A stretch of DNA of 38,571 nucleotides from Candidatus Daviesbacteria bacterium RIFCSPHIGHO2_02_FULL_43_12 (lineage in GTDB: Bacteria; Patescibacteriota; Microgenomatia; Daviesbacterales; UBA10151): the NCBI GenBank assembly GCA_001776775.1, contig MFDD01000002.1:270773-309343 (forward strand), in the 5' to 3' direction. Below are positions 17,083 to 36,951 of the stretch, in pieces. Position 1 is the first letter of the stretch. Each line of letters opens with the position of its first letter. The translations under genes and the position numbers were made by a program. A model generated the notes under the pieces. That model did not search any database, had not been told where the DNA came from, and was given only the letters and a program-made list of their open reading frames with translations.

Positions 17083-17982
17083 TTAAAAGGTAAGTAGATC
17101 TTTCATCTTTTGAGCATATCTTTTAAGTCCGCTCTTAGGTAATTGAACCAATTTGATCCAGTACTGAGTATCCCGGAAAGCCTTTTTAGTTTCTTTATTC
17201 AAATCACCAAGCGAGACATCTTGTGCCGAAAAACCCTGATTTTCCCAAACTTTAAGATACACCACCAAAAACGAAAAAGCCTGCAGAAGACTAAGGACAA
17301 ATCCATGTAGTCCATCCCTATAACCTTCCCTTCCAAAGAAGCGTCCCAAAAATTCGTCCAGTGGCTGCTTGATCAAATCCCGGGAGTTAAAGACATACCC
17401 AGAGTCTTTAAGCTCCTTCGCTTGGATGCCAGTATACCTATTCATTCGTTCTAAGAATTGGGCTATCGACTCATAGTGATGGTGCGTTAAGGCCATCTCC
17501 TGATCCTCTCCCAATCTCAACTCCTTGCCCTGGGTTTGCGGTTTACTATGAATAGCCTCTTTCCAGGTTACCTGACCTCTTTTAAAGAGGCGGATATTAA
17601 AGTCGGGCCACCAGCCTGAATACTCCATCCATTTACCAAAGATTATATTTTTTCGAGGGACTAAGACAAAATCAAACCCGTCTTCACTAACTATTTCTTT
17701 AATCTTTTCGGCAAGCCTGGAGGGAACCTCTTCATCTGCATCTAGCAACAGGATCCACTGAGACTGCGCTTGAGATATCGCGAAGTTTCGGGCCGGTTCA
17801 ACATAACCTGTTTTTTTATGAAACACAACTTTAGCGCCCATCTCTTTGGCGATCTCGACAGTTTTGTCATCGGAATACATATCACAAACAACTACCTCAT
17901 CAGCCCACTGCACAGACGACAGCACCCGTTTAATATTTTGCTCTTCGTTTAGGGTATTAATCACTACTGAGATTTTATTCAT
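17083..17982 (-). CDS. GT2 glycosyltransferase (WaaE/KdtX-like)
   Basis: MNKISVVINTLNEEQNIKRVLSSVQWADEVVVCDMYSDDKTVEIAKEMGAKV...WILLLDADEEVPSRLAEKI...YSGWWPDFNIRLFKRGQVTW. Confidence 0.9.
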   Translation of the reverse strand: MNKISVVINTLNEEQNIKRVLSSVQWADEVVVCDMYSDDKTVEIAKEMGAKVVFHKKTGYVEPARNFAISQAQSQWILLLDADEEVPSRLAEKIKEIVSEDGFDFVLVPRKNIIFGKWMEYSGWWPDFNIRLFKRGQVTWKEAIHSKPQTQGKELRLGEDQEMALTHHHYESIAQFLERMNRYTGIQAKELKDSGYVFNSRDLIKQPLDEFLGRFFGREGYRDGLHGFVLSLLQAFSFLVVYLKVWENQGFSAQDVSLGDLNKETKKAFRDTQYWIKLVQLPKSGLKRYAQKMKDLLTF

Positions 17983-18015: not shown

Positions 18016-19734
18016 CTAATCTGTCTTGCTAGACGAAAAAAGATAAAAAATTGGCATCCCTGAGGGCTGAGTAAAAACCTTAATTAATTTAAGATCAGCA
18101 GGCACTCGCGAGGGCTCATTTTTTAGATCCTGCACTATCTCCTTTTGCGTGGCTAAATACAGAGTCCGGACCGGGAGCTTAGTACCTAGTTCATACAACC
18201 CAATCCCATCTCCTTCTGAGGTGAAATAGAACTTATCTAATTTACGCACTTTTCCAAATGGAGCAAGGTCTTCTTTCTGGGGAAAACGTTCTTGAAGCTC
18301 TTGGGGTGGGAACTTAGCGTAACTTAAGAAAAACTTAAATAAAGGTTCATCGGCCTGACTAATAATCACCCTATCATATGCATCAGCTAGGCTTTCGGTT
18401 TCTATAATAGCCTCTTTAATCCCAGCATGCCACCATCTTTCTGATTCAATTGGATAATGAGCCAAATATTGATGTACAAAAAATATAAAACTGATTAAAT
18501 AAGTACCTATGGTACCAACTCTCGCTAAATACATCAGACTTCGAGATTTTTGCCCGGATAAAAGCTTGCTTAGACCAAAGCTTACCAGTATCAAAAGCGG
18601 CGGGAGCATTAAAATCAAGCGAGTCGCATGATCCCCACCTTGATCAGTCAGGGCAGCCGGAATAGGAGCCAGCAGTAGCCAGCCAATAATAAATAATTTA
18701 ATTTTTGTAGGGATGGCAGAGATAAAAAAGACGATCAGTCCAAGCAGCAAAAATACGAAATCAATTTTATACATCACCCCCATTCCCTGGATCGAGTGAC
18801 GAGGGTTATGATCGCCTTTGGTAAATAAAAACTGACTAGAAAAAGAGGTTAAATAGTTATTGAGGAAAACATTTCCCAGGTAGGTCACCTTATTATGTAG
18901 TAGCTTTTCTGGAAGAGTAGCCGCTACTCCATTGGCCGCATTTGGATCTCTTCGCTTCGCATCGGCCAAACGCTCAAAGCCAATCGAGGGCTCGATTGTT
19001 TTATCGGCAAGAATAGAAATACTCCCAAACCTCTCTGCTCCCCCAGCAAAAAGAGTACTCCAGGTAATCGGAATTATTACCAGCATAAAAGCCATGATAC
19101 AAGCCACCAATGCTTTTCGAGGAAGTTTTTGTAATTCTCTCCACCATAAAGCTAATATCAAAATAAGTATTAATGGTAAAAAAAGCTTTGCGGTGGAATA
19201 GACCCAAGGTAATAGTCCCAGAGATACAGAGGCGAGTATTAAGTAGTTTGGTTTCCTGAGTCCTTTCAAAAAGCTCCAAATTCCGAGTAACAATAGCAGG
19301 ATCATCTCACTTACTTCAAAGCCAGTTCGAGAATAATGAATATGCCAGGGAGAAAGACTTATTGCCACAGCAGAGAGCAGGGCCACTCGTTCGTCACCGG
19401 AAAGCTCCTTGACCAATAGATACAATAGATAGATGCTTAATACCCCCAAGATCACCGAGGGGAGCCTTACTCCAAGTGGCGTAATACCAAAAAGTGCCAC
19501 AGTTGGTACAGTCGTATAGAGGTATAGCGGTGTTCTGTATTCTGCCAAAGACTCAAAATGTATCGGCATGAAGTTTCCCATATAGTCTTTACCTGTCGTT
19601 AATATCGAATATGCCTGATACCCCACATCAAGTTCGTCACCAAATAAAGACACCGGAACTTTATCCAAATAAATAAAGCGTAGAAAAAATCCAATGATCA
19701 TAGCGGCTGCTAATATTATTTTTTTATACTTCAT
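18016..19734 (-). CDS. GT39/ArnT-PMT-like GT-C glycosyltransferase (divergent member of the GYNAYSI subfamily)
   Basis: VPVSLFGDELDVGYQAYSILTTGKDYMGNFMPIHFESLAEYRTPLYLY; DQGGDHATRLILMLPP; PRHSIQGMGVMYKIDFVFLLLGLI aligns with KQHHVQGMGELYLFEAPFLLFGLY of the gene ending at 9514. Confidence 0.78.
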   Translation of the reverse strand: MKYKKIILAAAMIIGFFLRFIYLDKVPVSLFGDELDVGYQAYSILTTGKDYMGNFMPIHFESLAEYRTPLYLYTTVPTVALFGITPLGVRLPSVILGVLSIYLLYLLVKELSGDERVALLSAVAISLSPWHIHYSRTGFEVSEMILLLLLGIWSFLKGLRKPNYLILASVSLGLLPWVYSTAKLFLPLILILILALWWRELQKLPRKALVACIMAFMLVIIPITWSTLFAGGAERFGSISILADKTIEPSIGFERLADAKRRDPNAANGVAATLPEKLLHNKVTYLGNVFLNNYLTSFSSQFLFTKGDHNPRHSIQGMGVMYKIDFVFLLLGLIVFFISAIPTKIKLFIIGWLLLAPIPAALTDQGGDHATRLILMLPPLLILVSFGLSKLLSGQKSRSLMYLARVGTIGTYLISFIFFVHQYLAHYPIESERWWHAGIKEAIIETESLADAYDRVIISQADEPLFKFFLSYAKFPPQELQERFPQKEDLAPFGKVRKLDKFYFTSEGDGIGLYELGTKLPVRTLYLATQKEIVQDLKNEPSRVPADLKLIKVFTQPSGMPIFYLFSSSKTD

Positions 19735-21761
19735 ATTTTCGGTATCTCGATGTAGCTATCCAACACCTTGTGGTCAACTTTTAAGACTCTAGCATGGTCA
19801 TTTTCAAAGATAGTACTTACTCCTAGAGGAGTCAAATCTACTTTAAACTGCTGGTTCCAGACTAGATAGATGTAGTTAATATTATTTTCCTGTAAATATT
19901 TTTGGATAAATTTTAAATCCTTACTTTGAAACAATAGTTCTCGCTGTTTTAATTTATCCTCTATCTTGTACCCCATGATCGTCAGCTGTTCTGAGTCAGA
20001 CAGGAAGGTTCTTCTTCCAGAAAAGGCTGGCACATACCCGGTGTCATACCAGGCGTAAATAGGAATCGGTGGCTTAGTGAACCCAGCGGCCGAGTATCCG
20101 TCAAAGGGAGCTGTAAAGACAATATCTCTCGAGGTTAAATTTTTATTGATAAAGCTTAAAGCTGCTAGCTCTTGGTTGGAGACCATCGACAAAGGGTGAT
20201 TAGTATAAAACTGTAGGAGTAAACCAACTTGGGTCGGTACGGCTAATATAATCACTATGCTAGCAAATGCTATCTTTAACGCTTTAGATTTTAGTTTAGT
20301 CAGCAACCAAAAGGTGGCGATGGCAGCTAAAAATCCAAAGAGCAGCAAAAAGTATTGATTAAACTGAATAACATTCCAGGCCACTCCCTTTTGCACAAAA
20401 AGCACTGGGATAAAAAAGGAGGCTGTGGTGATACTTAAAAAGAAAACTTCAAAGTAGTGGGAAAATATTCTCTGGCGCAGCATTTGCCAAAAAGCGATAA
20501 ATCCCAAAATCCTCATTCCTAAGTTTCCAGTTAAAAAAATTAAAAAGGCTTCTGTCTCGAGCTGAATCACCCGTTTTAAATTGTGTTCATAGATATAAGT
20601 CTGCCGGCGGAGCTCCATGTCCATCCAATTCAAGCGGTCACTGGCTACCACCATTGTCCGAATAAACCACCATGGCTGCCAAATTACAAAATCCTGAGAG
20701 TTTTGACTATTGGGCAGATATATCCCTAAACTCACTAAAAACACCCCTGCAGTTAAAGGAATCAAACCCAAGCTCCTTTTTCTTAAAAGATCCACAATTA
20801 ATACGATAACTAACCCCCCGAGTACCAGTAACCCTCCGTAAACTTTAAATTCAATAATACTTCCACCCAGCAGAATCAAAACCGGTAATAGATTTTTAGG
20901 CTTAGTTTCAAAATAGCGATAGAGTACAAACAAAAAGGTGGTGAGGATTATAAAAGCTGAGGCGTGTGGAGGATTTCCCAATACTGACTGAGTTTGGGAG
21001 ACCCAAAAGATTGACTCACCCGATAAGTTGTGACTACGCGGGATGGTGAGCAAGTAACCAAAACTTCCACAGAAGTATGTTAGTATCATCGCCCAGATAC
21101 CGGCTCCCTCCTTTTTAGTCCATCTTCTCACTAGACAAAAAGCTGATAGTCCCAGCAGCAAAGAAAAGAGGATTGGCATAAATCTAAAATAGACATCCAA
21201 ATTGGAGAAGGGAAAGAGTCTAGTGATCTCAGACATCAGCAGATCGACAAAGAAATGATAGTTCTGGAGAGTATATCCGGCGTACTCTGGATTCTGCAGC
21301 GGTACCACTCCTTTATGGAACTCCTCCATTAAACTAAGATGCCAGATTCCGTCATGGCCATGCGAACTCCAAAAGTAGATGCCCTCTGGGTATTTAAAGC
21401 CGGAAGGGGCATTAACCGCCACCTGTCCGATCATCCCGACTATCAAGACTATCCAAAACCACTTGGATACTTTAAGTATTGCACTCTTCCAAATATTTAC
21501 TTTTTCTATCCAGGCAAAGATCAAACCAACCATCACCCAAGCCCAAATCAAATCCCTTAGGTGAATTAAAGTTAAGAAATAAGCCAGCAGAGTAAAAATT
21601 ACCAGACCCAAGACAGTGGAGAGCAAAAACTTCTCTAATAAATCGTCGCTTTCAATTTTTAACTTCTTCAAAATTAAGGCTCCGGGGGAGGTAAAAATAA
21701 TTAAACCAACGGCCAAAAAAACCGGGATGAGTAATATTTGAATGACTATTTGTTGTAACAT
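19731..21761 (-). CDS. Uncharacterised polytopic membrane protein, GT-C-like; stand-alone paralog of the C-terminal module of 21764..25192
   Basis: SHGHDGIWHLSLMEEFHKGVVPLQNPEYAGYTLQNYHFFVDLLMSEITRLF; SGESIFWVSQTQSVLGNPPHASAFI; WQPWWFIRTMVVASDRLNW; LTGNLGMRILGF; FVQKGVAWNVIQFNQYF. Confidence 0.65.
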   Translation of the reverse strand: MLQQIVIQILLIPVFLAVGLIIFTSPGALILKKLKIESDDLLEKFLLSTVLGLVIFTLLAYFLTLIHLRDLIWAWVMVGLIFAWIEKVNIWKSAILKVSKWFWIVLIVGMIGQVAVNAPSGFKYPEGIYFWSSHGHDGIWHLSLMEEFHKGVVPLQNPEYAGYTLQNYHFFVDLLMSEITRLFPFSNLDVYFRFMPILFSLLLGLSAFCLVRRWTKKEGAGIWAMILTYFCGSFGYLLTIPRSHNLSGESIFWVSQTQSVLGNPPHASAFIILTTFLFVLYRYFETKPKNLLPVLILLGGSIIEFKVYGGLLVLGGLVIVLIVDLLRKRSLGLIPLTAGVFLVSLGIYLPNSQNSQDFVIWQPWWFIRTMVVASDRLNWMDMELRRQTYIYEHNLKRVIQLETEAFLIFLTGNLGMRILGFIAFWQMLRQRIFSHYFEVFFLSITTASFFIPVLFVQKGVAWNVIQFNQYFLLLFGFLAAIATFWLLTKLKSKALKIAFASIVIILAVPTQVGLLLQFYTNHPLSMVSNQELAALSFINKNLTSRDIVFTAPFDGYSAAGFTKPPIPIYAWYDTGYVPAFSGRRTFLSDSEQLTIMGYKIEDKLKQRELLFQSKDLKFIQKYLQENNINYIYLVWNQQFKVDLTPLGVSTIFENDHARVLKVDHKVLDSYIEIPKI

Positions 21762-21763
21762 TT

Positions 21764-24700
21764 CTAGTTGACTTGGTAGATTACTACTTCTCCATTTTCA
21801 AAAATATTTTTTACCGACGAGGACTCTTCAATAGATAAATTATAGTGTTTTTGGAGATAAATGTACCTAATCGAATTAGCCCGCAACATGTCCGCGCCTC
21901 TTAAACCCTTGCTCTGTAAAAATTCGTTAGCTTCTACTCGACGTTTCATATAATCTGTTCCGAGTATCTCTTGCTGAATCTCATCCTCCAGAAAAGTAGG
22001 GTGCTTGGAATAGGCGCTGACGTAGGCCGTTGTTTCGTAAGCATATAGCGGACGCGGTTCTAAGAAATCGTTTTTAGTATTTTTACTATATGGCACAGTT
22101 AATACTACTCCAGACGGTTGATCTTGTAAAAACTGTAGGGCCGCGAGCTCATCGATACTAATAAAAGTATGCGGACGAGACACTAGATAGCTTGTGGCGG
22201 TAACCAGGGAATTTATCGGAGCCATCAAGATAAGAGCTACTATTACTAAAGAAGCTAAGGCTTTAAATTTAAATCTAACCAAACTACCTAAAAGTATTCC
22301 GGTTAATACGGCCGCTATATACATTCCATAATAGAAAAACTGGATCACATTCCAAGAATTTCCTTGCTGTACAAAAAGTAGTGGTAAAACAAAGGAAACC
22401 AGGGTAAATACTAGTAAAATAACCATATTTGTATTTCTCCAGGTTCTTTTTTGAAAAAGCACAAGTAATCCTATTACTCTAACTCCCAAGTTCCCCGCTA
22501 AGAATATCATTAGAGAGACCGCCTCAGCTAGAAGATACTTAAACCAATTACTCGTTTGAAAATAAGTTTCTCTGGCAGAAGCTAGTTTGGCCCATCCTAC
22601 CCGATCAGGAAAATCAATCATACCGTGGACTAACCAAAATGGCTGGAACATAAACACTCCAGCGGCTTTAAAATTAGGTAGATATAGACCAAGGGCTAAT
22701 CCTCCACTAGTTAAGAGTCCAGCCAGTAATGCTGGTTTTTTATTCTTCAATAATTCCCAAAGACTAAAAACTAGTAGCGCAGTTGATGTTAGCAAAAAAG
22801 CGTAGGCTTTAAACCCGAGTAAGCTAGCGTTGACTAGCGCAAGTATCAGCATAGATTTCCAACTTCGCCTTTCCGAAAAGAGTAGGTGGAAAAAAAGTAT
22901 GCATACCAAAAGCGAGATGGCAAATGGGGGATTAAGATTAAGAGAGACTGGTTGATTAGCCCAAAAGGTTGACTCTCCTCCAAAGTGTCCTTCTCTTAAA
23001 AATTCCACTATCCAGCCAAAGCTTCCGGAAAAGTAAACAAAAAACAGCACAAAGACATTGGTCTGAAAATTTCTCCTCTCTAGTTTGTCCGGTGAGATTA
23101 GTTGCACCAAAGAAAGACTGCCAATCCCCAGAAGGAGAGAAAAGATAACTGGATAAAATCTAAACAGTAAATCAGAGGTGGCTACTCCCGTTAAAAGATG
23201 GGTTGTCGCGAGTAGAAGATCGTAAAGATAATGATAGTTAATCAGCTGCACCCCGGAAAGGGTGGGATTATTTGGAGGTAACCCCAAAAGAAGAGAGTTA
23301 ACCAAACTTAAGTGCCAAATCCCATCATGAGCATTCGGCCCCCAAAACCCATCTCCATAGTTAAAATGACTTCCACTCATTACTACTGGTAGTACTTGAA
23401 AAACTATTCCCAAACCCACTATCGCACTTAAAATAAGTGCTCTGGGAGTAAACTTCGGTCGGGGAATGTTTTTGTAGGCTTTTTTGAGAATATATAAAAA
23501 CGTAGCTACCCCACATACTACTGGTGCAAAGAGGTAGACTCCAAAGAAACCGGAGATATAACTTAAAACCACAAATTGGATTAACCCATAAACTGTGGAT
23601 AAAAATATCCAGCCTATAAATGTATCGGGCTTTTGAATTTGAGTGATGACCAAAGCTCCGGGAATAATGATCAGGGCGACCAAAAAGAGCATAAAGATAG
23701 TCAAGTCTCTAGCAATTATCAAGGGCCTAGCTTGCCAGCTGATTGATGAGGGAAATAAGGGTGCTAGATTTCTAGTAACTCCTTGTCTTTGAGCCGTTAA
23801 GATAGCCGAGTCGATAGTATAAGTATTATTATCAAACTTTATATCTCTTGGTAAAAGGGTTAGGTTGTGTGACTGATTAGCCTGATTTGTCAGAGTAATT
23901 AAGACATTTAGTCCATTTTTGCTTACTTTAAAATTATTGATTTTTCCTTCGCTTAATTGCCACTGTTTCCCAAAAGTAACTTGATCCAAGACTCGTGTTG
24001 TAGAAGTTGCAAAATAAACATGCTCACAACTCTCCTGCAAGCAAACCTCCTGGTCTCCATCTCGGTATTGGCGGATATCCCGAATCGAGAGTCCTGCTGA
24101 ATCTTTAAAGATACCTATTCTATAGTAAGGGTTTTGAAACCAAATAGTCTGATCTTCTCCTCCCAATGGGTTATCGGCAATTATCAACTGGCTCGGTGAG
24201 ACGCCTGGAAACTGCCGACTATACCAATTGACGAACTGGGACATGGTAGTTACTTGCAGCCCACTTGACTGTTTAGTTTTTAAAGCAGCTAGTTGACGCT
24301 CATATTCAGCTCCATATTTGCTCCAGGAATAGGAATTTTCCAGCCCGACCGTCAGTTGATTAAATTGATTATTTTTTTGGGAAAGGTAAGTATCGACCAA
24401 TCTATTAAAATAGTTAATATCTAATTGATGATAGTCAATATAATCATTTGGTTGGACGCTATAGGTACTCTCTTCAACTGCTTTACCATATCCATTCACG
24501 GGATCTCTGCTCGCCCACTGCATCAAGACTACCGGAATTTTGCCCGCCTCATCACGAGCCGGAATAAGGGCGTTTGTTTTATATGGATAATAAGGCGTTG
24601 CCCAGTACTGTCCCCAAATTTGATAATCATCAGTTGAGTATTGGTCTGCGACAATCAACCCGGCATTCACATGATACTCTTCTGTCATCAATTTCAGGGA

Positions 24701-25192
24701 AAAACTATCTATCCACCAGGCACCTACAGAGGTAGGATAATATCCAAAGATGTCTTTAAATTTTTCAAAAAGAGTTTGCACCAGGAGTTTTCTTTCAGCA
24801 GTTGAATAGCCCGTTAATAGAGCGGAGCCAGCTTGGTGCCATGAGCTACTTTTATGATAAGTCACATTAGCCGCCTCAGCCAAGGAGGGTGTAACTTCTA
24901 AAAAAAGCCCTTTTTCCTGATTACTGGGTGCTCTCTTCAAAAGAGCGACTATCTCTTTATTTGCCAAGGCATCGAATCTTAGCAGCCAAGTAGCCGGGAG
25001 CTGATAGTTTTTTAGTATTTCGAATTGCCGATTGACGCTATCGGCTGGAGTTTGATCTGACAAATCCCAGAATTCGTCACCTCGTATCGGATTAACGACC
25101 GTCACGAAGGCTGGCGAGGAGTATGCTAAAGCCTTAACCGGAAAGAAGACCTCAAATAAAAAGACTGCACAAATAATTAATAGTTTATACAT
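21764..25192 (-). CDS. Two-domain protein: signal peptide plus deacetylase/glycosidase-like extracellular domain, then GT-C-like polytopic module
   Basis: ORF 1156 aa from 25234; ATG at 25192 (MYKLLIICAVFLFEVFFPVKALAYSSP) gives a clean signal peptide. The region to about residue 505 of the listed ORF is soluble-looking (VNPIRGDEFW...LKNYQLPATWLLRFDAL...FGYYPTSVGAWWIDSFSLKLMTEEYHVNAGLI...). From about residue 508 (ARDLTIFMLFLVALIIIPGALVI) it is polytopic and matches the 676-aa neighbour. Confidence 0.75.
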   Translation of the reverse strand: MYKLLIICAVFLFEVFFPVKALAYSSPAFVTVVNPIRGDEFWDLSDQTPADSVNRQFEILKNYQLPATWLLRFDALANKEIVALLKRAPSNQEKGLFLEVTPSLAEAANVTYHKSSSWHQAGSALLTGYSTAERKLLVQTLFEKFKDIFGYYPTSVGAWWIDSFSLKLMTEEYHVNAGLIVADQYSTDDYQIWGQYWATPYYPYKTNALIPARDEAGKIPVVLMQWASRDPVNGYGKAVEESTYSVQPNDYIDYHQLDINYFNRLVDTYLSQKNNQFNQLTVGLENSYSWSKYGAEYERQLAALKTKQSSGLQVTTMSQFVNWYSRQFPGVSPSQLIIADNPLGGEDQTIWFQNPYYRIGIFKDSAGLSIRDIRQYRDGDQEVCLQESCEHVYFATSTTRVLDQVTFGKQWQLSEGKINNFKVSKNGLNVLITLTNQANQSHNLTLLPRDIKFDNNTYTIDSAILTAQRQGVTRNLAPLFPSSISWQARPLIIARDLTIFMLFLVALIIIPGALVITQIQKPDTFIGWIFLSTVYGLIQFVVLSYISGFFGVYLFAPVVCGVATFLYILKKAYKNIPRPKFTPRALILSAIVGLGIVFQVLPVVMSGSHFNYGDGFWGPNAHDGIWHLSLVNSLLLGLPPNNPTLSGVQLINYHYLYDLLLATTHLLTGVATSDLLFRFYPVIFSLLLGIGSLSLVQLISPDKLERRNFQTNVFVLFFVYFSGSFGWIVEFLREGHFGGESTFWANQPVSLNLNPPFAISLLVCILFFHLLFSERRSWKSMLILALVNASLLGFKAYAFLLTSTALLVFSLWELLKNKKPALLAGLLTSGGLALGLYLPNFKAAGVFMFQPFWLVHGMIDFPDRVGWAKLASARETYFQTSNWFKYLLAEAVSLMIFLAGNLGVRVIGLLVLFQKRTWRNTNMVILLVFTLVSFVLPLLFVQQGNSWNVIQFFYYGMYIAAVLTGILLGSLVRFKFKALASLVIVALILMAPINSLVTATSYLVSRPHTFISIDELAALQFLQDQPSGVVLTVPYSKNTKNDFLEPRPLYAYETTAYVSAYSKHPTFLEDEIQQEILGTDYMKRRVEANEFLQSKGLRGADMLRANSIRYIYLQKHYNLSIEESSSVKNIFENGEVVIYQVN

Positions 25193-26642
25193 TGCGAAAA
25201 TTTTGGATCTCGCGTAATATTTTATTTTTACCAAGTATAAAAATTAGTCCACCATAAACAACTCCGCCCAAAGCCACTGCAACTGCCAAGCTTAGTTTAT
25301 CCTTAACATAAAATCTGGAAAACACACCCACTACTATACTCATTAATAAAGAAACTGCAGTTGGCAGTAGTATAGATTCCAAAACTTTAATCCTTAAAAC
25401 CCTTTTAACTAAGATTATGGTTATTATGGAAGTAAATGAAATAATAAACGAAGAAATTGCTACCCCAGTAAACCCATAATTAATGGTCAGTAACGGTGTT
25501 AGCAGCCAAGTCAGGACCGTCCAAAAAATCATTAGTTTCAAGGTCATTTTAATATGTCCGATGGCATTTAAAACATTTGTAAAGGTTGTCGAAATCACCG
25601 CCCAAAATGTAGATGAAGCAAAAAGATAGAAGCTCGGAATTGCTGCTTCAACCTTTGAAGAGAGTATATGTGTCACCACAGATGGCAGAACTGCCCCGAG
25701 TCCAAAGAGAAGCGGGTAGACAATTAGCGCTGTTAAAAACAGTGTTTTTTCAATGACTTTTTCTAAAGAAGCTTTGTCACTTTGTAAGCGGGAAAAAAGA
25801 GGAAAGCTGATGCGTATAATAATATTCATTCCTTCCAGTGGAAGAAAGGCCATCGACTGCGCCCAGGTCACATAGCCTACCCCAATGGGCCCAATAATAT
25901 GTGCAATAATTAAAGGAACTAAACGGTCTTTAAGCAAAGCTAGTAGACTGTTTAATTGAAAGGGTACCCCAAAAGATAGCAGCTTTCGGATAACTTGTGT
26001 ATCTAACTGAAAACCAACTCGAACGGGGGCAATGACATAAATTAAAATAACTCCGACTATTCTCTGTGTTAAAGCAGCCAAAGAAAAACTCCAGATTCCA
26101 AAATTTGCATAGGCTAAGATAATTAAAAGGGACACATAGATAACCGTTTCCACAATATCCACAATTACCAAAGATCTAAACTTAAGCTCTCGCTCCAACA
26201 TTACCGCCGGAATTACTTTTAATGAAGACAAGAAAAAACACACTCCCAAAATACGAATCAGCCAGACCCCGTCATCGTTTAAATGATAAAAATTGGCTAG
26301 CATCGGGGCTGAGAGAATAATCAACAAACTCAAAATTGTGACCAAAGTTTGTTGAATGGTAAATGTGCTCTTGATATCAGACGAAGTTACCGCTTCCTTT
26401 TTTTGGATCAAGGAGGCTGCCAGTCCAATGTCCGAAAAGAAACTAAAAAAACTGATTATCCCATTGGAAATGTTAAAAATTCCAATAGTCTCAACCGATA
26501 AAATTCTAATAAGAATGAAATTATTCGTGAGCAGGCCAAAGAAACTAGTCGCTAAAGAGCCAAAGGTCAAACTCATAAACGAAGACACTACTCTTTTTTT
26601 TATGTTCTTAATATCTATACTCAGGGACTGCGCTTCTTCCAT
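25185..26642 (-). CDS. Lipopolysaccharide/oligosaccharide flippase (MOP family, Wzx/WzxC-like)
   Basis: VVSSFMSLTFGSLATSFFGLLTNNFILIRILSVETIGIFNISNGIISFFSFFSDIGLAASLIQKKEAVTSSDIKSTFTIQ...FRSLVIVDIVETVIYVSL. Confidence 0.9.
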   Translation of the reverse strand: MEEAQSLSIDIKNIKKRVVSSFMSLTFGSLATSFFGLLTNNFILIRILSVETIGIFNISNGIISFFSFFSDIGLAASLIQKKEAVTSSDIKSTFTIQQTLVTILSLLIILSAPMLANFYHLNDDGVWLIRILGVCFFLSSLKVIPAVMLERELKFRSLVIVDIVETVIYVSLLIILAYANFGIWSFSLAALTQRIVGVILIYVIAPVRVGFQLDTQVIRKLLSFGVPFQLNSLLALLKDRLVPLIIAHIIGPIGVGYVTWAQSMAFLPLEGMNIIIRISFPLFSRLQSDKASLEKVIEKTLFLTALIVYPLLFGLGAVLPSVVTHILSSKVEAAIPSFYLFASSTFWAVISTTFTNVLNAIGHIKMTLKLMIFWTVLTWLLTPLLTINYGFTGVAISSFIISFTSIITIILVKRVLRIKVLESILLPTAVSLLMSIVVGVFSRFYVKDKLSLAVAVALGGVVYGGLIFILGKNKILREIQNFRNV

Positions 26643-28351
26643 TATCTATATAACCCCTTTAAATAATAAATAAGCCTAACTCTGACAACTTTAAGTTGAA
26701 ATAAAAATAATAGACAAAAAATTCCAAAAGAAACTAGCGTTACTAGATTACCAATTGTTCTGATTGGTGTATCGTATAAACGGGCGTCAACTTTGTGGTT
26801 TCCGACACCTACGATAATAGTCATTAGGCCAAGGGGATTAGTATAATCAATTTTTGTCTCCTTGCCATCTATAAAAATTCGCCAATTTGGAAAATAGTAC
26901 TGAGAAATTCTGAGAATTGAGTGAGTTAGAGTTTGCGTCTTAAAGGAGATCCAGTTACTCCCCTCCTTAAAATCTTCTATTTTAGTATCTCCGGTTATCA
27001 CTTCAAAGCGGGTTGCAGCAAGTTTAGCCGGCGGAGCAACTGCATAAATTGGCAGATAATCAAAGATGGATCTGTTTATTAGATTGGTCCAGTTTGGCTC
27101 GCTAAGCAGAACCTGGTCACTTACAAAGAGAAGTTTTTGCGGACGAAAGTAGGAAAAGTTTATTATTAAACAAATCAGGACTAATCCGGCAATAACAAAT
27201 TTCTGAAATTTACCCTTTAAGACTACGCTTATACTGCCGCTCACTAAAGATATAAAAAAGATAATTAAACTCAAAAAACGCCAGGGAAATTGTAAGTATT
27301 TTAGGACCGGATCAAATAGTTTCCAAACCCAAACAGATTGAGGATTAACCATGAAGACTGCCCCTAATATTAAAAAAGTACAGGTGAAAATAAATGTCGA
27401 TAAAAACCGATTTTTTCTACGGAGTACAAAAGCTGTATACAAAGATAATGCCCATCCCAGCAGATGTATGTAACCAATTTGAAAAGATAGGCCGTCTTTT
27501 TCGCCGCCGGGAACTTCTCTAACAGAAGCCCCCCAACCCCACGAATGGTCAAGAAAGAGTTTGCGTAAGCCCTTAAAATGTTCGGTATAGGAAAAGTAGC
27601 CCATGGTTGTGGTGTCAACATGCACTAAATTCTTCTCAACAACCATTGGCAGTAGATAAAAAGCACTTAATCCTAACCCCAAAACACAGGCTAGGACAAA
27701 GTATTTTAAAAAACGCAATTTTTCTTTAAACAACCCCACGAGTATTAGTAAACTAGGCAGAAACATGAGCACAGAAATATTATGTGAAACTAGTAGCAGC
27801 CCAATAAAAAAAGCCGATGTTAACAGATTTCCTAGAGACTGCTTTTCCTTTAAGCGCAGCAGCGCCCACAAAATGGCGGGAAAACACATCACCCCCCATA
27901 GCTCTCCCATCGCTCCCCGTACAAAAAGTAACACACTATGATACGGCGCTAAACTATAAAAAACACCAGACACAAATCCCCCTGCATTACCCCATAACTT
28001 TCTGCCCGCCAGATACATAAAAACATAAGACATCACAAAAGCTACTCCAAACATCACTTTAGCGCTAATGGTCAGGGTCTGAGTGATCCAGTAGACCAAG
28101 AGACCAAAATAATAGGGAAGAGGTGCATAATAATTAAACATTGGATATCCATATAAACCACCCAAATCTGGTACCCAGCGACAAGGAATTTGGGAATCCT
28201 GAATACATTTATTCATTTCAAAGAGGCGAATGACCTGAACATCGTCATGATGGGTAAAATAAGGGGCTGCCAAAAGTGGCCACAGCAGAGCGCAGGTAAT
28301 GATTAATCCCAGGACAAACAGGGTGCTTTTTTTAAGGTTAGGAAAGCGCAT
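26642..28351 (-). CDS. PTPS-related (PF10131-like) polytopic membrane protein, GT-C-like
   Basis: THHDDVQVIRLFEMNKCIQDSQIPCRWVPDLGGLYGYPMFNYYAPLPYYFG; C-terminal YYFPNWRIFIDGKETKI...VGNHKVDARLYDTPIRTIGNLVTLVSF. Confidence 0.78.
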   Translation of the reverse strand: MRFPNLKKSTLFVLGLIITCALLWPLLAAPYFTHHDDVQVIRLFEMNKCIQDSQIPCRWVPDLGGLYGYPMFNYYAPLPYYFGLLVYWITQTLTISAKVMFGVAFVMSYVFMYLAGRKLWGNAGGFVSGVFYSLAPYHSVLLFVRGAMGELWGVMCFPAILWALLRLKEKQSLGNLLTSAFFIGLLLVSHNISVLMFLPSLLILVGLFKEKLRFLKYFVLACVLGLGLSAFYLLPMVVEKNLVHVDTTTMGYFSYTEHFKGLRKLFLDHSWGWGASVREVPGGEKDGLSFQIGYIHLLGWALSLYTAFVLRRKNRFLSTFIFTCTFLILGAVFMVNPQSVWVWKLFDPVLKYLQFPWRFLSLIIFFISLVSGSISVVLKGKFQKFVIAGLVLICLIINFSYFRPQKLLFVSDQVLLSEPNWTNLINRSIFDYLPIYAVAPPAKLAATRFEVITGDTKIEDFKEGSNWISFKTQTLTHSILRISQYYFPNWRIFIDGKETKIDYTNPLGLMTIIVGVGNHKVDARLYDTPIRTIGNLVTLVSFGIFCLLFLFQLKVVRVRLIYYLKGLYR

Positions 28352-30050
28352 TTTTTCTTCTCCTTAAAAAGATCGCCACAGCGACTAGGGACACAAGTGA
28401 GGTGATATTGGCGATAGTTCGAATCGGAGTATCTCTAAATTGCAGTTGAATTTTATGTTGCCCTGAGGGGACATTAAACTTAATCAATCCGACATCGTCT
28501 GGCTCCAATAGATCTGATCTTTGGCCATCAATCTTGAGCTGCCAGCCGGGAAAATAAGTAATCGGTACCTGGAGTGTGGCGCTTTGAGTACTCGTCGTTT
28601 GAAAAGAAGTCTCGGCGGTTTTTTTGATAAAAGCCGAGATACTACCCTCTCCCATGCTGAATGTCGGTTCAGAGAATCTTTCTAACTTAATTCGCTTAAC
28701 CCAGATCGGCAAATAATCTCGAGGCAGCTTATCGTCTTGGGAAAGGATTTTTATGGAGATATAGTGCTCGTCAATACTATCGTAGTAGTAGCTATCCGGC
28801 CTAAAGAAGCCGATATTAAAGGTATAGGTGGCCACGATGATCGCGATTACAAAAACTACCGTTAGGCGAGGTTTAAAAACTAGTACTAATAGAGAACACG
28901 CTGCAGAAACAAAAAAGATCGATAGCCCTAGAAATCGCCAGGGAAATTGGGTAAAGGACAACAGGTCAAACCTCTCCCAGACAAAGGCCGACTTATTATG
29001 TTGCATAAATAAAGACAGTCCAAAAGTGGCCACAAAAAATCCATAAGTTAAAAGAGCGGAATCAAATTTAGATGTTTCAAAGATTATTTTAAACAGACCT
29101 TTAAGCTTCCTCCGGGCAATTAATAGGAAGCCGGTCAATAAAGATAATCCAAACAGCACCCAGTGAGCCGGACCAATTTGAAAAGACATACCGTCTTCAT
29201 TCCCCCACACCGAAGCTCCGTATCCCCAGAAGGTAGAGAAAAATTGTGGAACAGTCACAAAATGACCCCGAAAATCAAAGTATCCTTGAGTTAGATATTT
29301 TGACTGCACAAAAGCTTTTTCTATAAAAGCGGGTAGCAAAAAGGAGGCAGCTACGGCGATTCCCCAGACAAAGGAGAGGGCCAGGTTTATTCCTAACTTA
29401 CGGCCGGGATTTTTGAGAAAACAGTACCCCATCCAGGCTAGCAGAAACGGCGAAAAAAGCATGGTCATCACGTTATGGGTATAAAATAGTCCACCTAAAG
29501 ATAGGGCGACCAAAGCGGTATTTCTAATGGTCGGCTGAAGAGACAACCTGTAAATAGTCCAAAAGATTAAGGGAAAAAAGACTAAGGCCCAAGCTTCTGA
29601 CAATGCTCCCCGAACATAGATATCCACCGAGTGGTAAGGCGCATACATATATAGTATGGCCGCTATAAATCCGGGGTATCTACCGAAGATAGATTTTACA
29701 AACAGATACATCGCCAGCCCCGAGAGGAGAAAGGTCATCCCAAAGATAATCTTGGTAGTCTGGATATAAGACAAAAAGAGCGAGTGTTTGATAGCTACTC
29801 CGATATAGTAAGAAAGGGGGGCATAAAAGTTATATAACGGTTCGCCGTAGCGAAAATCCTTGACCCATCTGACCGGAAAATGCCCTTCAGAAACCGCTTT
29901 ATCCATCTGATATAGTCGGGCAATATAGATAAAATCCTGGGTGGGAAAGAAACCAGGCCTAGTCATTGGTAAGATCAAGGGTATAGAGAGCAGGGCTATG
30001 CAGATAGGTAAAAAGAGTCCGCTTTTAAATAATCTGGTAAATCTTTTTAT
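28338..30050 (-). CDS. PTPS-related (PF10131-like) polytopic membrane protein; probable AUA start
   Basis: PTQDFIYIARLYQMDKAVSEGHFPVRWVKDFRYGEPLYNFYAPLSYYIG; C-terminal TYFPGWQLKIDGQRSDL...VPSGQHKIQLQFRDTPIRTIANITSLVSL. The ORF track starts at TTG 29978, but the frame stays open upstream to ATA at 30050 and encodes the missing first TM segment (IKRFTRLFKSGLFLPICIALLSIPL). 570 aa versus 569 and 561 aa for the paralogs. Confidence 0.75.
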   Translation of the reverse strand: MKRFTRLFKSGLFLPICIALLSIPLILPMTRPGFFPTQDFIYIARLYQMDKAVSEGHFPVRWVKDFRYGEPLYNFYAPLSYYIGVAIKHSLFLSYIQTTKIIFGMTFLLSGLAMYLFVKSIFGRYPGFIAAILYMYAPYHSVDIYVRGALSEAWALVFFPLIFWTIYRLSLQPTIRNTALVALSLGGLFYTHNVMTMLFSPFLLAWMGYCFLKNPGRKLGINLALSFVWGIAVAASFLLPAFIEKAFVQSKYLTQGYFDFRGHFVTVPQFFSTFWGYGASVWGNEDGMSFQIGPAHWVLFGLSLLTGFLLIARRKLKGLFKIIFETSKFDSALLTYGFFVATFGLSLFMQHNKSAFVWERFDLLSFTQFPWRFLGLSIFFVSAACSLLVLVFKPRLTVVFVIAIIVATYTFNIGFFRPDSYYYDSIDEHYISIKILSQDDKLPRDYLPIWVKRIKLERFSEPTFSMGEGSISAFIKKTAETSFQTTSTQSATLQVPITYFPGWQLKIDGQRSDLLEPDDVGLIKFNVPSGQHKIQLQFRDTPIRTIANITSLVSLVAVAIFLRRRKNALS

Positions 30051-31575: not shown

Positions 31576-32322
31576 TTACCGATAAAAGCCGGTTAGGTCA
31601 CGTAGCCTGATCCTCAGCATATCCAAAACCGCATCAATGGCGTTTTTCCATAGCTGATAGCTTTTACTTTCAACATGATGCCACTCTACCGGTACATCAA
31701 TAATTTTGAGACCAGCTTTTTTAGCCAGAAACAAAAATTCAGAATCAAAACCGGCATTAACTATATATCCACCCTGAGCGCTTTTTTTGTATTGTTCTAA
31801 AAGCTTTGGAAAAATACTCTGACGGGATTTTTGGTTAAAGGCTTTGAACCCACACTGGGTATCCGAAAAAGGTAACCCCAGGATAATATTTCGCAAAATT
31901 GCAAAAACTACCGAGGCAAGTTGGCGGATAAAGGGAGATCCTGTTCGACCATCTCGGGAACCGATGACAATATCAAAACCTTCACTAAATTGAGGCAGCA
32001 GCTTTTCTACTTCCGTAATTGGTGTCGCCTGATCCATGTCCGTAAACAAGGCGATTTCTCCTTTTGCCGCCAGCAGTCCGGTCATCACTGTCACGGCTTT
32101 TCCGGCATGAGGGTTTTCTATCAGCCGGAAGTTTTCTCTCTTTTTGATCTGCTCTTTGATAATAGCCACACTACGATCAGTTGATCCATCATCGACAACT
32201 AAAACTTCGTATTTATAATCAACTTGATGTAAATATGCATCAACCTCGGCCAAGACGCCTTTGGAGAGACTTCTCTCCTCATTGTATCCAGGAATAATAA
32301 CGGAAAGTTTAAGATTACTCAT
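31576..32322 (-). CDS. GT2, dolichyl/polyprenyl-phosphate glucosyltransferase-like (ALG5-like)
   Basis: MSNLKLSVIIPGYNEERSLSKGVLAEVDAYLHQ...VLVVDDGSTDRSVAII...NPHAGKAVTVMTGLLAAKGEIALFTDMDQATPITEVEKLLP...SDTQCGFKAFNQKSRQSIF. Confidence 0.88.
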   Translation of the reverse strand: MSNLKLSVIIPGYNEERSLSKGVLAEVDAYLHQVDYKYEVLVVDDGSTDRSVAIIKEQIKKRENFRLIENPHAGKAVTVMTGLLAAKGEIALFTDMDQATPITEVEKLLPQFSEGFDIVIGSRDGRTGSPFIRQLASVVFAILRNIILGLPFSDTQCGFKAFNQKSRQSIFPKLLEQYKKSAQGGYIVNAGFDSEFLFLAKKAGLKIIDVPVEWHHVESKSYQLWKNAIDAVLDMLRIRLRDLTGFYR

Positions 32323-32363
32323 AGCTTTTAGTGTACTGTAGTTTGCCTCAAATTTATATCCCC

Positions 32364-33863
32364 TTAAGTCTCCTTTTCATTGTGAACCAGCTTGAATATC
32401 TTAACACCATCTAAGACGAATTGACTCTCTATTTTTGTCCAACCAAAACCAGCTATCTCGAACTTAGGATGTCCGACCGGGTTACAAACTGCATCCTCAC
32501 AGACTACAAAAAGTTGTCCGGTTTTATGGAAAGGAAGCTCCTGGGGAGGGTGTTTATAAATCCAGAGGTAATATTGGTAGGCAGCGTCATAGTTACGCTC
32601 GGCAATAAGCGCGAAATTATACGGCTTATTAGCCGAGAGAGTAATGATAAACTTGGAGATCTCTTGGGTATGGGCCAGCTGATTACCCGGCGGATAGCGT
32701 AACGGGCTTTTTTGAAAGTTAAACCAGATTACAGCCAGCAGTAACACCCAAAAGACTAGGGAGAATAAACGGCCCGCAGCCTTTAAATTTTGAAGATAAA
32801 ACCAGATCGCTCCAATTAGAATATAGGGGATAAAATTTATAAATCCTAAATAGTGATCATAGATCTCTTGATTAAAAAAAGTCAGCATCATAAGTCCGAC
32901 AGCCAAGGTTAGATATAAAGCCCCAATATTCCAGGAAAATTTGCGAGTGGTTATCCAGATATAGACCTCCCAGACTCCTGGGATAAAGACCACCAGACTA
33001 ATCAGCCAAGAGGTCCATCTGATATCCCCGGCCATATAGGGCAATATCAGCTTTTGAGTATAGATAGGTACAATCTTAGAGATAGTTGAAAATACGCTCG
33101 GACGAACTGCCGAATCAGCGGAAAAAAAGATCTCTGCAAAGGCTCTTAGATTCATAAAATTATGTCGAAGGTCGAAAACGATAAGCGGAGACATCACCAG
33201 CAAAAAGGCCACAATCCCTCCCCAGGTTCCTCTTTGAAATGAGCCCAAAGAACCCTTTTTGCGTTGATCTAATAGTTCGTGCAGCCAGAGCAACCCTATT
33301 GATGGTAGTAAAATCAGTCCTAGATAATGCATCTGGACGGTACAAGCAAAGAAAAATCCCGTCATTATCCACCACAGCTCATTTTTAGTTTTTCTAACTA
33401 AATAAATAGATATCAGAGTTAAGAGGGCAAAAAAAGGCGCCGGATTAGGATTCCAGGATGATCTGGAATGAATAATCGTAATTGGAGAGATCGCATATAG
33501 CAGGCTCGCTACGATTGCCGGAACTCGGCCAAACCATTCTCTGGTCAGCCAGTAGATTACTGCGATAGTAGCTATTCCGATCAAAGCGACCATTCCCGCC
33601 GCTGCAACCGGATTCAGCCAAAATATAGTCATGGCCACGGTCATCATGTAGTAATAAAGCGGCCCAAGATATATATTACCCACCGACATTGGTGGTCCGA
33701 TTAGGGGAAGGTCAAAAGTGGTGAGAATGCGCTTGACCATTAGGGCATCTCGGCCTTCGTCCCCTAAAAAGGTCATATATCCGGGAAGATTATAAAAGCG
33801 CAAGAAAGCTGCCAGCAGTAGGATAATTACGAAGACCAGCATCTCCAGTTTGCGTTGCTTCAT
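32364..33863 (-). CDS. GT39/ArnT-PMT-like GT-C glycosyltransferase
   Basis: LPGYMTFLGDEGRDALMVKRILTTFDLPLIGPPMSVGNIYLGPLYYYMMTVAMTIF; polytopic. Start moved to ATG at 33863 (ATGA overlap). Confidence 0.83.
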   Translation of the reverse strand: MKQRKLEMLVFVIILLLAAFLRFYNLPGYMTFLGDEGRDALMVKRILTTFDLPLIGPPMSVGNIYLGPLYYYMMTVAMTIFWLNPVAAAGMVALIGIATIAVIYWLTREWFGRVPAIVASLLYAISPITIIHSRSSWNPNPAPFFALLTLISIYLVRKTKNELWWIMTGFFFACTVQMHYLGLILLPSIGLLWLHELLDQRKKGSLGSFQRGTWGGIVAFLLVMSPLIVFDLRHNFMNLRAFAEIFFSADSAVRPSVFSTISKIVPIYTQKLILPYMAGDIRWTSWLISLVVFIPGVWEVYIWITTRKFSWNIGALYLTLAVGLMMLTFFNQEIYDHYLGFINFIPYILIGAIWFYLQNLKAAGRLFSLVFWVLLLAVIWFNFQKSPLRYPPGNQLAHTQEISKFIITLSANKPYNFALIAERNYDAAYQYYLWIYKHPPQELPFHKTGQLFVVCEDAVCNPVGHPKFEIAGFGWTKIESQFVLDGVKIFKLVHNEKET

Positions 33864-34564
33864 CTTAACTTCCACCACAAAATAAATAAATCGACAAAGC
33901 TTTTGAAAAAAACCTTCGAAAAAATACTTCCTCCAGTTGGACTGCCGAAACGTCTGGGGTAATGATTTACCCCTACCTCCGCAAATTGAAAGCCTCTTTT
34001 TTTCGCCTTCACTAAAAACTCAATCTGGGTGACTTTTTCTTCAGTTTCCAAGGGTAAAACGGCGTTGTAGACTGATTTTTTTATCAGTTTAAAACCACAA
34101 GAATAATCTTTAACAGATAAACCAAGCAGCAGCAGGGCTATCGTTTTCCAGCCATAGGTCAAGACTTTTCGTCTAAAGGGATCCGCCCGAGCTATCCGGT
34201 AGCCAACGATCAAGTCTGCACTATCTGTTTTCTCGATAAATTTGGTAATCTCTTTAAAATCAAATTGTCCATCAGAATCGGTAAAAGCGACCCATTCGTA
34301 CTTTGATTCTTGAAAACCGGTCTTAAGCGCTCCGCCATAACCCAAATTAGTCGGGTGGGTGACTAGTCGAAGTTTGGGGTATTTAGCTTGCAACGACTCT
34401 ACTACTTTGGCGGTTTGGTCGGTGGAGGCGTCATTGACAACGATGATCTCGTAATTTTTTAGCTTACACAGGTCAAGGCCCTGTTGGACATTACTAATCG
34501 TCGATGCTATGTTTTCCTCTTCGTTAAAAGCAGGTAAAAAGACTGACAAGCTATTAATTTCCAC
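33860..34564 (-). CDS. GT2, polyprenyl-phosphate mannosyltransferase (DPM)-like
   Basis: LSVFLPAFNEEENIASTISNVQQGL...EIIVVNDASTDQTAKVVESL...TNLGYGGALKTGFQESKYEWVAFTDSDGQFDFKEITKFI...DYSCGFKLIKKSVY. Listed start is GTG at 34564; see finding on start choice. Confidence 0.9.
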   Translation of the reverse strand: MEINSLSVFLPAFNEEENIASTISNVQQGLDLCKLKNYEIIVVNDASTDQTAKVVESLQAKYPKLRLVTHPTNLGYGGALKTGFQESKYEWVAFTDSDGQFDFKEITKFIEKTDSADLIVGYRIARADPFRRKVLTYGWKTIALLLLGLSVKDYSCGFKLIKKSVYNAVLPLETEEKVTQIEFLVKAKKRGFQFAEVGVNHYPRRFGSPTGGSIFSKVFFKSFVDLFILWWKLR

Positions 34565-34599
34565 TCCTAATATGCTACCATCAAAGATGGTTGCTGCAT

Positions 34600-35772
34600 A
34601 TGGGTAAATCTGAATTTAGAGCTTGTTTAATTCTCGGTCTGGTCACCTTATTTATTACCGCATTAATGTGGTTGCCTCACTACCTTGCTCTCCCCAATTT
34701 TTATGGCCTGAATTTTTCCGAGGGTTTTAATACTATTTACCGAAACTTTGACGGCATTGAATATATTATTATTGCTAAAAGCTTTTATCGGCCAGAGCTG
34801 ATCGCCCACTTACCTCAGTCTCTTTCTGCCAGCTATTACGCTGCTCACTTTCCGGGATTTGCATTAGTAATTTTGGCCTTTTCGCCGCTGCTTGGTTTTC
34901 TAAAATCAATGCTCTTTTCTTCACTTCTTTTTACCTATCTCTCCACAGTGGCTTTCTTCTTTCTAATCAGACGGTTTAAGTTAAGTAGCCAGCCGCTTTG
35001 GTTAGCAGTGCTTTTTCTCGTACTCCCGGCTAGGTGGTTGATAGTCCATTCGGTTGGCTCAGCTGAACCAATGTTTATTTTCTTTGTGCTGCTCTCTGTA
35101 TATTTTTTTAAGGAATTTCAGGAAACAAAAAAGTCTTCTTTTATTTGGTTCTCAGCCCTGGCTGGACTGGTAGCTCAATTGACCCGTCCTCCCGGAATTT
35201 TGCTATTTATAGCCATTGGGATATATGCTCTATATGAGCTGTTTTGGGAACAAAAGGGAGCATTTTTACAGAGATTTATTAAAATTGTTCAGACCTACCT
35301 ACCCTTTATCCTGATTCCCCTTGGTCTTTTGGGTGTTTTTATTCTTTATAGCTTCACCTATCATGATTTTTGGGCTTATTTTCATAGCGGAGATAATATT
35401 CACCTCACCTTGCCTCCGTTCCAGATCTTTAATAAACATCAATTTTGGGTTGGAGAAATTTGGCTGGAAGATGTGATCTATATTTTAATTCTCGGGTTTT
35501 TTGGAGGATTATACCTTTGGAAAAAAAACTTACGGGGAATGGGGACTTTTGTCCTCACTTATATTACAGCCACGGCCTTGGTTACTCATCGAGATATCAG
35601 TCGCTACGCTCTGCCGATCTTCCCCTTTTTAATCATCGCTTTCGAGAAGGTGCTCATCAGCAAAGAGTTTAAAATCGTGATGGCTATTTTGGCAGTAGCT
35701 TTTTATCTTTATGCCCAAAACTTTTTAATTGCAAATGTGGCCCCTATTGCTGAGCTGACTCCTTTTAATTAG
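34600..35772 (+). CDS. PIG-V-like GT-C membrane protein; the only plus-strand gene in the window
   Basis: YRNFDGIEYIIIAKSFYRPELI...YYAAHFPGFALVILAFSPLLG; HSVGSAEPMFIFFVLLSVYFFKEF; LTRPPGILLF. ORF begins with TTG at 34591, ATG at 34600 preferred. Confidence 0.75.
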   Translation: MGKSEFRACLILGLVTLFITALMWLPHYLALPNFYGLNFSEGFNTIYRNFDGIEYIIIAKSFYRPELIAHLPQSLSASYYAAHFPGFALVILAFSPLLGFLKSMLFSSLLFTYLSTVAFFFLIRRFKLSSQPLWLAVLFLVLPARWLIVHSVGSAEPMFIFFVLLSVYFFKEFQETKKSSFIWFSALAGLVAQLTRPPGILLFIAIGIYALYELFWEQKGAFLQRFIKIVQTYLPFILIPLGLLGVFILYSFTYHDFWAYFHSGDNIHLTLPPFQIFNKHQFWVGEIWLEDVIYILILGFFGGLYLWKKNLRGMGTFVLTYITATALVTHRDISRYALPIFPFLIIAFEKVLISKEFKIVMAILAVAFYLYAQNFLIANVAPIAELTPFN

Positions 35773-36951
35773 TTACTTTCGCCGCCAGGTGACGAAATGG
35801 TTAATAGTAAAGTTCCAAGCCATTACCGGGGGGATGGTGGTTAAGAAGATAATGTTATGATAGGCAATCTTTAACCCGAATATAGACAGTATGCCTTCTC
35901 CGTAAATGTAATCTAAAACAGCGGTTATAGAGATACTGATAAAAATTGCCCCAGTACTGACCAAACAATACATCAAAAATCTCTGCCAAACCTTGGTCGT
36001 AGTCTGCCTACCTTTAAAGGTCCACAGTGAGTTCCAGGTAAAGTTATTCACTATCCCCAAAGAAGCAGAGAAAAGCCTAGCTACAGCCGGAACAAAACCA
36101 AACCACCTGATAAATAGATTATAGAAAAACAGGTCCACAATCGTGCCGGTAAATCCCACCACCGAGAACTTAATAATTACCTTGGCTTTATGGCTCCACT
36201 TAAAAAAAGGCACTTTAATCCCCCATTTATGCAACCTGGCCTCGATAACATAAGTCAACACATCGTAGCTGTAATTGATGATCTTGTTTTTGGAATATCC
36301 TTCGGCTCTGTCTTTAAAAATCAAGGGAATCTCTTTGTATTTTGCTCCGGCGATCATGGCTTCGTGGACAAAGGCCGGTTGAATAATAAATGTTTGCTGT
36401 TTCCAAGGCAGCCTATTTAAATTTATCTTCGAAAAAAGCTGAGGCGTAAAAGCTCGAGCAGAATTAGCAAACTCCTGAAAATCCCATGGTCCCATTATGA
36501 TGCGGACCACCAAAGACATTGTCGCACTAAAAAAACGACGAGATATCGACAGGTTGTTTTTGCCACCCTTTACAAACCTTGAACCCTGAACATATGTATA
36601 TCCTTCTTCGATAGTTTTAACCATTCTTGGCAAAATATCTATCTCCACTTGTCCATCAGCGTCCATTTGGGCCATGATATCTGGTTGTAAATTTTTGAGA
36701 GCATAGAGATGAGCTGTAATCAACCCAACCCCTAATCCCGGTTCAACTTGTAAATAGTGGATTTGAGAATTTTTGGAGGCTAATTTTTTGACGATCAGAT
36801 CTGTCCCATCGGATGTCCGGACATCGTCGGCAACTATGATCTCTATCTTCCAGCCAGGAAGCTCTTTTTCCTGATCCAAAACTCCATCGATAAATTTCTC
36901 GATATTGTCTTTTTCGTTATAGGTCGGTAGAACAACTGAGACTATTTTCAT
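35773..36951 (-). CDS. GT2 glycosyltransferase with C-terminal GtrA-like domain
   Basis: MKIVSVVLPTYNEKDNIEKFIDGVLDQ...IIVADDVRTSDGTDLIV...IMAQMDADGQVEIDILPRMV...YVQGSRFVKGGKNN, then KVIIKFSVVGFTGTIVDLFFYNLFIRWFGFVPAVARLFSASLGIVNNFTWNSLWTFKGR (GtrA signature). Confidence 0.92.
   Translation of the reverse strand: MKIVSVVLPTYNEKDNIEKFIDGVLDQEKELPGWKIEIIVADDVRTSDGTDLIVKKLASKNSQIHYLQVEPGLGVGLITAHLYALKNLQPDIMAQMDADGQVEIDILPRMVKTIEEGYTYVQGSRFVKGGKNNLSISRRFFSATMSLVVRIIMGPWDFQEFANSARAFTPQLFSKINLNRLPWKQQTFIIQPAFVHEAMIAGAKYKEIPLIFKDRAEGYSKNKIINYSYDVLTYVIEARLHKWGIKVPFFKWSHKAKVIIKFSVVGFTGTIVDLFFYNLFIRWFGFVPAVARLFSASLGIVNNFTWNSLWTFKGRQTTTKVWQRFLMYCLVSTGAIFISISITAVLDYIYGEGILSIFGLKIAYHNIIFLTTIPPVMAWNFTINHFVTWRRK

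Follow-up and report, generated by a model that had tools for sequence, protein, structure and literature searches.

What does a protein do that joins a secreted, enzyme-like domain to a membrane module resembling a sugar transferase, in a member of the Patescibacteria, whose genomes are reduced and whose surfaces are little studied? This question is raised by a single gene in the window, the 38,571-nucleotide stretch of DNA analyzed here. A preliminary description made from the sequence alone had read the gene product as a deacetylase/glycosidase-like domain fused to a GT-C-like membrane module.

Gene model and layout of the fusion protein

The open reading frame was found on the minus strand as described; its originally assigned length of 1156 aa fits an in-frame TTG start at 25234, whereas the interval 21764-25192 encodes 1142 aa. 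The ATG at 25192 is the better start, because a signal-peptide-like segment (MYKLLIICAVFLFEVFFPVKALA) begins there, because it gives an 8-base overlap with the stop of the flippase gene, and because homologues begin at a roughly equal position. Residue numbers below follow the 1156-aa frame (subtract 14 for numbering from the ATG). The features of the gene are as follows.

21764-25192, minus strand: complete barrel-GT-C fusion gene, preferred ATG start, 1142 aa
25234, minus strand: alternative in-frame TTG start, 1156 aa
25124-25192, minus strand: signal-peptide-like segment (by eye and hydropathy)
24209-25111, minus strand: NodB/GH57-superfamily barrel, residues 42-342 (AF2 model, Foldseek, conservation)
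23780-24193, minus strand: beta-rich C-terminal subdomain of the soluble half, residues ~348-485 (AF2 model, conservation, 3LM3 alignment)
22181-23719, minus strand: GT-C membrane domain, residues 506-1018, ~13-14 transmembrane (TM) helices (AF2, Foldseek, positive-inside pattern)
23312-23329, minus strand: H636-D637-x-x-W640-H641, candidate catalytic motif of the GT-C half, lying in the first large loop on the outer side (conservation)
21767-22180, minus strand: predicted soluble extracytoplasmic C-terminal domain of the GT-C half, residues 1019-1156 (AF2, topology)

Hydropathy and AF2 helices agree that the protein is soluble at residues 38-505 and polytopic from ~506 onward, the same layout as had been proposed, and all motifs quoted in the preliminary description were located in the frame. 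Whole-protein searches of Pfam, NCBIfam and PDB sequences returned zero matches for the fusion protein. Full-length homologues with 40-49% identity over >1100 aa were present in many genomes, so the frame is not a product of chance.

The soluble half is modeled as a NodB/GH57-superfamily barrel

AF2 models were generated for the N-terminal and C-terminal halves separately. The N-terminal model, built with 38 homologues, presented a pLDDT of 89.6 and a pTM of 0.90, and its best Foldseek match in the PDB was 3LM3 (E 4e-15, prob 1.00), followed by CE4 deacetylases and GH57 enzymes and, more weakly, GH38. 3LM3 is Parabacteroides distasonis BDI_3119, a putative glycoside hydrolase/deacetylase of DUF3863 (PF12979). 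Independently of Foldseek, a profile search reached 3LM3/DUF3863 at E 5e-5, and a more diverse alignment did so at E 4e-7 in two colinear stretches spanning both the barrel and the beta subdomain; the latter (residues ~348-485) is colinear with 3LM3 residues 316-405 and conserves W365, R372, D386 and R388. On these models, the N-terminal half is a NodB/GH57-superfamily barrel at the level of fold superfamily. This part of the earlier reading stood, whereas the word deacetylase, in its enzymatic CE4 sense, is not supported, as the metal motif is absent. The DUF3863 family (PF12979) itself gave no match to the window protein and only weak ones to its relatives (best E 4.4e-6, none above the gathering cut-off, 19 genomes), and the GH57 family of Pfam (PF03065) matched neither the window barrel nor its aligned relatives.

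Conserved residues of the barrel

Conservation was assessed in an alignment of 80 barrel homologues of all architectures. The CE4 motif 1, TFDDG, occurred in 0/80 and the HxxxH pattern in 1/80, against 12/12 for both in control CE4 proteins of the same lineages, and the highest His column reached 53%. The lack of TFDDG and of a metal-type HxxxH, already noted for the fusion protein, was confirmed. Assignment of the barrel as a CE4 deacetylase was rejected on these absent motifs and on an hhalign comparison with the CE4 profile that was not significant.

The residues that are conserved are R51, D88, E113, W173, D176, Q198, D202, D264 and E299, seven of which (R51, E113, D176, Q198, D202, D264 and E299) reach 93-100%; the pocket-side residues E113 (97%), D176 (97%), D202 (98%) and E299 (100%) are retained in every architecture. 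Strongly conserved charged or amide residues lie near strand C-termini in 7 of 11 cases (odds ratio 4.4, p 0.019), a modest enrichment in strand-end windows picked by the analyst from the AF2 model. In that model, D176 and E299 follow directly after strands 4 and 7, plausible positions for the two catalytic carboxylates of a retaining glycosidase of the GH57 type, which are carried by those two strands. D176 aligns with a Ser in 3LM3 and is therefore not common to DUF3863.

Taken as a set, E113, Q198, D202 and E299 suggest either a glycosidase-like site that uses carboxylates and no metal or a pocket specific for a sugar, and the pattern of conservation speaks for a pocket that has been retained rather than for a CE4 deacetylase. 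We see an even chance that the barrel is catalytic as a metal-free glycan-processing site, with E113, D176 and E299 as candidate carboxylates. In two very divergent fusions (L036:7533-10595 and L037:7128-10205), the barrels have lost the stretches around the D202 and D264 motifs; these two are possibly degenerate, in keeping with a barrel that, in these proteins at least, has lost its role or is not catalytic.

The membrane half is modeled as a GT-C glycosyltransferase

The model of the C-terminal half (pLDDT 92, pTM 0.93) identifies it as a GT-C glycosyltransferase fold: all 17 PDB matches obtained by Foldseek at E<=1e-3 were GT-C enzymes, comprising oligosaccharyltransferase (OST) STT3 subunits, AglB, PglB, DPY19, AftA and ArnT. 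The GT-C-like membrane module of the preliminary description is thereby borne out. D637 and H641, both in outer loop 1 (EL1), are invariant in 35/35 sequences. Lys and Arg are concentrated in alternate loops (loop 3, with 16 residues, has 4.1 of them and EL1, with 54 residues, has 2.5), a charge pattern that places the barrel, EL1 and the C-terminal domain together on the outer face.

The OST hallmark WWDxG was found in 0/35 C-terminal half sequences, and membership of this half in the OST (STT3/PglB) group was rejected on that count. Comparison with the neighboring PTPS_related GT-Cs gave an hhalign E of 0.0013 at a probability of only 19%, which is no more than suggestive of kinship.

Recurrence of the fusion and other barrel architectures

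Within the Daviesbacteria-type family, for which 45 genomes were available, no fewer than 25 carry the full fusion, and it recurs across the class. Of 281 class genomes, 94 were matched by the barrel profile, and a phylum-wide sample produced only one weak match outside the class. Among 80 rows, 40 have the barrel-GT-C architecture; other rows have the barrel joined to other TM modules or secreted alone. How often the fusion recurs had been put forward as a check on the preliminary description, and it is present across family and class, reversed order included: in L009/L032, L033 and L118 the GT-C comes first and the barrel second. On the tree these reversed proteins are placed away from the main clade of fusions and need two changes, so the association of barrel and GT-C appears to have arisen more than once, on a quick tree in which several deep branches are weak.

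Further variants were observed. Two proteins (L030:7375-9432 and L031:7459-9450) have a barrel with only two TM helices and end in a tail similar to the soluble C-terminal domain of the GT-C module, as would be expected had the catalytic membrane core been lost by deletion. In L034:7349-9208, L116, L137, L117 and L121 the barrel is joined to a different module of 4-7 TM helices (no Pfam match on scanning L034). A divergent clade (L124-L134) consists of secreted barrels without TM helices that lie mostly outside recognizable glycan loci within the few kilobases read.

A conserved cassette within a glycan-assembly island

The fusion gene is embedded among the following genes.

25185-26642, minus strand: MOP-family (Wzx-type) polysaccharide flippase, directly upstream and overlapping the fusion start (Pfam Polysacc_synt_3, 2.6e-53)
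26642-29978, minus strand: two GT-C-like membrane genes of the PTPS_related type, located upstream of the flippase and kept in the cassette
19731-21761, minus strand: 676-aa GT-C paralogue of the C-terminal half (32-33% identity) without a barrel, directly downstream
18016-19734, minus strand: PMT_2-type GT-C enzyme, the next gene of the conserved cassette
17083-17982, minus strand: GT2 glycosyltransferase of the conserved cassette, 51-55% identity in relatives
31576-36951, strand unspecified: likely donor-making genes with PMT-type GT-Cs between them
31576-32322 and 33860-34564: DPMS-like GT2, likely donor-making
35773-36951: GT2-GtrA fusion, likely donor-making

A MOP flippase directly precedes 38 of the 41 genes scored as fused, mostly with overlap; the three exceptions are two short two-TM proteins and L108, for which the flippase is adjacent in another listing. 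In Daviesbacteria-type loci a repeated order is seen: PTPS-type GT-Cs, flippase, fusion, GT-C paralogue and/or PMT-type GT-C, and GT2 genes, with the 676-aa paralogue found near the fusion in most relatives. Barrels without a GT-C in L103, L119 and L120 fill the same slot, between flippase and GT2. Together, the DPMS-like synthases, GT2-GtrA fusion, MOP flippase and GT-C genes encoded in the window make up a multi-component glycosylation gene set.

The window is taken up nearly completely by one glycan-assembly island (positions 460-36951). Its GT-C-type membrane genes number about twelve, and it also holds numerous GT2/GT4 genes, a pair of MOP flippases and a YfhO-like protein; mutual paralogues are frequent among these genes. 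The GT2-GtrA fusion combines a polyprenyl-sugar synthase and a putative flippase in one gene, and a small Fic/DOC-domain protein (37051-37437) lies at the edge of the island. The genome, whose closest named relatives are mostly Candidatus Daviesbacteria, measures only 1.12 Mb and nevertheless gives a 38-kb island to glycan assembly.

Proposed role and alternative explanations

We are fairly confident of the architecture of the fusion, its location and the type of pathway to which it belongs, and the barrel-GT-C pair probably provides surface-sugar assembly with an integral step of processing or recognition. In the mechanism that we propose, the flippase would carry a sugar or oligosaccharide, linked to polyprenyl, across to the outer face, where the GT-C half would transfer a sugar from a polyprenyl-linked donor using D637 of outer loop 1, and the barrel, tethered on the same face, would act on the donor or acceptor glycan through a metal-free carboxylate site. 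The barrel step would most likely be trimming or editing of the glycosidase or transglycosidase type, before or after transfer. The statement as a whole, that the fusion is a bifunctional extracytoplasmic enzyme of flippase-dependent, multi-component glycan assembly which couples metal-free barrel processing to transfer, is advanced tentatively, at a little under an even chance. Coupling of glycan modification to transfer, which the preliminary description had suggested, we likewise infer; its structural, topological and gene-neighborhood preconditions are present. A bolder version, in which the barrel founds a new metal-free glycoside hydrolase/transglycosidase family and one protein both trims or remodels and extends a flipped lipid-linked glycan, is possible but rather doubtful. 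No description of trimming coupled to transfer was found for GT-C enzymes in the literature, and searches on DUF3863, 3LM3 and a NodB-GT-C fusion found nothing relevant. We know of no activity or substrate for the barrel or for 3LM3, its closest solved relative.

An active metal-free glycan-processing barrel is favored, closely followed by a non-catalytic glycan-binding or acceptor-recognition module derived from a former enzyme fold, which might play a role like that of the carbohydrate-binding module (CBM) of GT136 ORF12 and which we consider possible but less likely than not. Such a module would agree with the loss of the canonical metal motif in 80/80 barrel sequences and with the existence of CE4 pseudoenzymes (7bkf); a GT-C enzyme bearing an additional CBM on its extracytoplasmic side has a precedent (PMC11127046), and a second protein for acceptor binding has been proposed in multi-component systems (PMC8035078). 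However, the Glu/Asp set is near-invariant across very divergent and standalone proteins, a stronger constraint than binding alone usually needs, and secreted barrels occur without a GT-C in the same protein. By analogy with PgaB, a deacetylase acting on a glycan during export, the barrel might instead be an esterase, for example a de-N-acetylase, whose metal site is unusual. CE4 deacetylases do dominate the fold matches after 3LM3, but neither TFDDG (0/80) nor a conserved His is present where true CE4 proteins of these lineages keep both motifs, and the CE4 profile comparison likewise speaks against it, making this reading improbable.

For the membrane half, the alternative to a monosaccharide transferase is an en bloc oligosaccharyltransferase- or polymerase/ligase-like enzyme acting on the flippase-delivered lipid-linked glycan, which is compatible with either view of the barrel. 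OST catalytic subunits are the best fold matches of this half and the Wzx-type flippase is constantly adjacent, but WWDxG is absent from 35/35 sequences, and ArnT and AftA are also among the matches, so that the donor type is not readable from the fold; we regard the en bloc alternative as somewhat unlikely. An assembly or gene-calling artefact has a negligible probability, as dozens of assemblies, independent of one another, encode the fusion in one uninterrupted frame of 1000-1190 aa; no support for an artefact was found beyond some relatives split by stops or gaps (L024, L112), of which L112 was excluded as a natural split of the two halves on account of its runs of unknown bases.

The conserved flippase-barrel-GT-C module offers a concrete candidate enzyme for how Patescibacteria build or edit surface glycans, and it defines an unnamed protein family that is present in roughly one in three of the class genomes sampled.

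Comparison with known systems

The window barrel shares with 3LM3/DUF3863 the barrel and beta-subdomain fold (TM-score 0.59/0.64), a profile alignment that runs colinearly (E 4e-7), and the residues Q198 and D202 together with Pro motifs, but identity is 14%, the barrel falls below the Pfam gathering cut-off, D176 is absent from 3LM3, and the solved protein has no GT-C fusion. Its barrel fold family is also that of CE4/NodB polysaccharide deacetylases (PF01522), from which it differs by the missing TFDDG, HxxxH, conserved His and significant profile match. With GH57/GH38 glycosidases it has in common the fold superfamily, and the candidate carboxylates D176 and E299, modeled close to where strands 4 and 7 end, may correspond to the GH57 layout; there is no sequence match and the Foldseek similarity is weaker. 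Like known GT-C enzymes (STT3/AglB/PglB, DPY19, AftA, ArnT, PTPS_related), the membrane half is polytopic with a GT-C fold, an outer-loop Asp and a soluble outer C-terminal domain; unlike them, it has no Pfam/NCBIfam match, no WWDxG, an HDxxWH loop motif, and apparently three additional TM helices before EL1.

Three- and multi-component transmembrane glycosylation systems combine a polyprenyl-sugar synthase, a MATE/Wzx/GtrA flippase and a GT-C enzyme (PMC11127046, PMC8035078), and ORF12, the founder of GT136, is a GT-C enzyme carrying an extra outer carbohydrate-binding module (PMC11127046). The window resembles these systems in its synthase, flippase and GT-C genes and in a GT-C that may bear an extra outer domain, and differs from them in the many GT-Cs gathered in one island. 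What sets the present case apart is that the extra outer domain of a GT-C enzyme is an enzyme-type barrel of the NodB/GH57 kind, from an unnamed family, rather than a carbohydrate-binding module; the few additional modules described on GT-C enzymes may thereby be joined by a processing domain.
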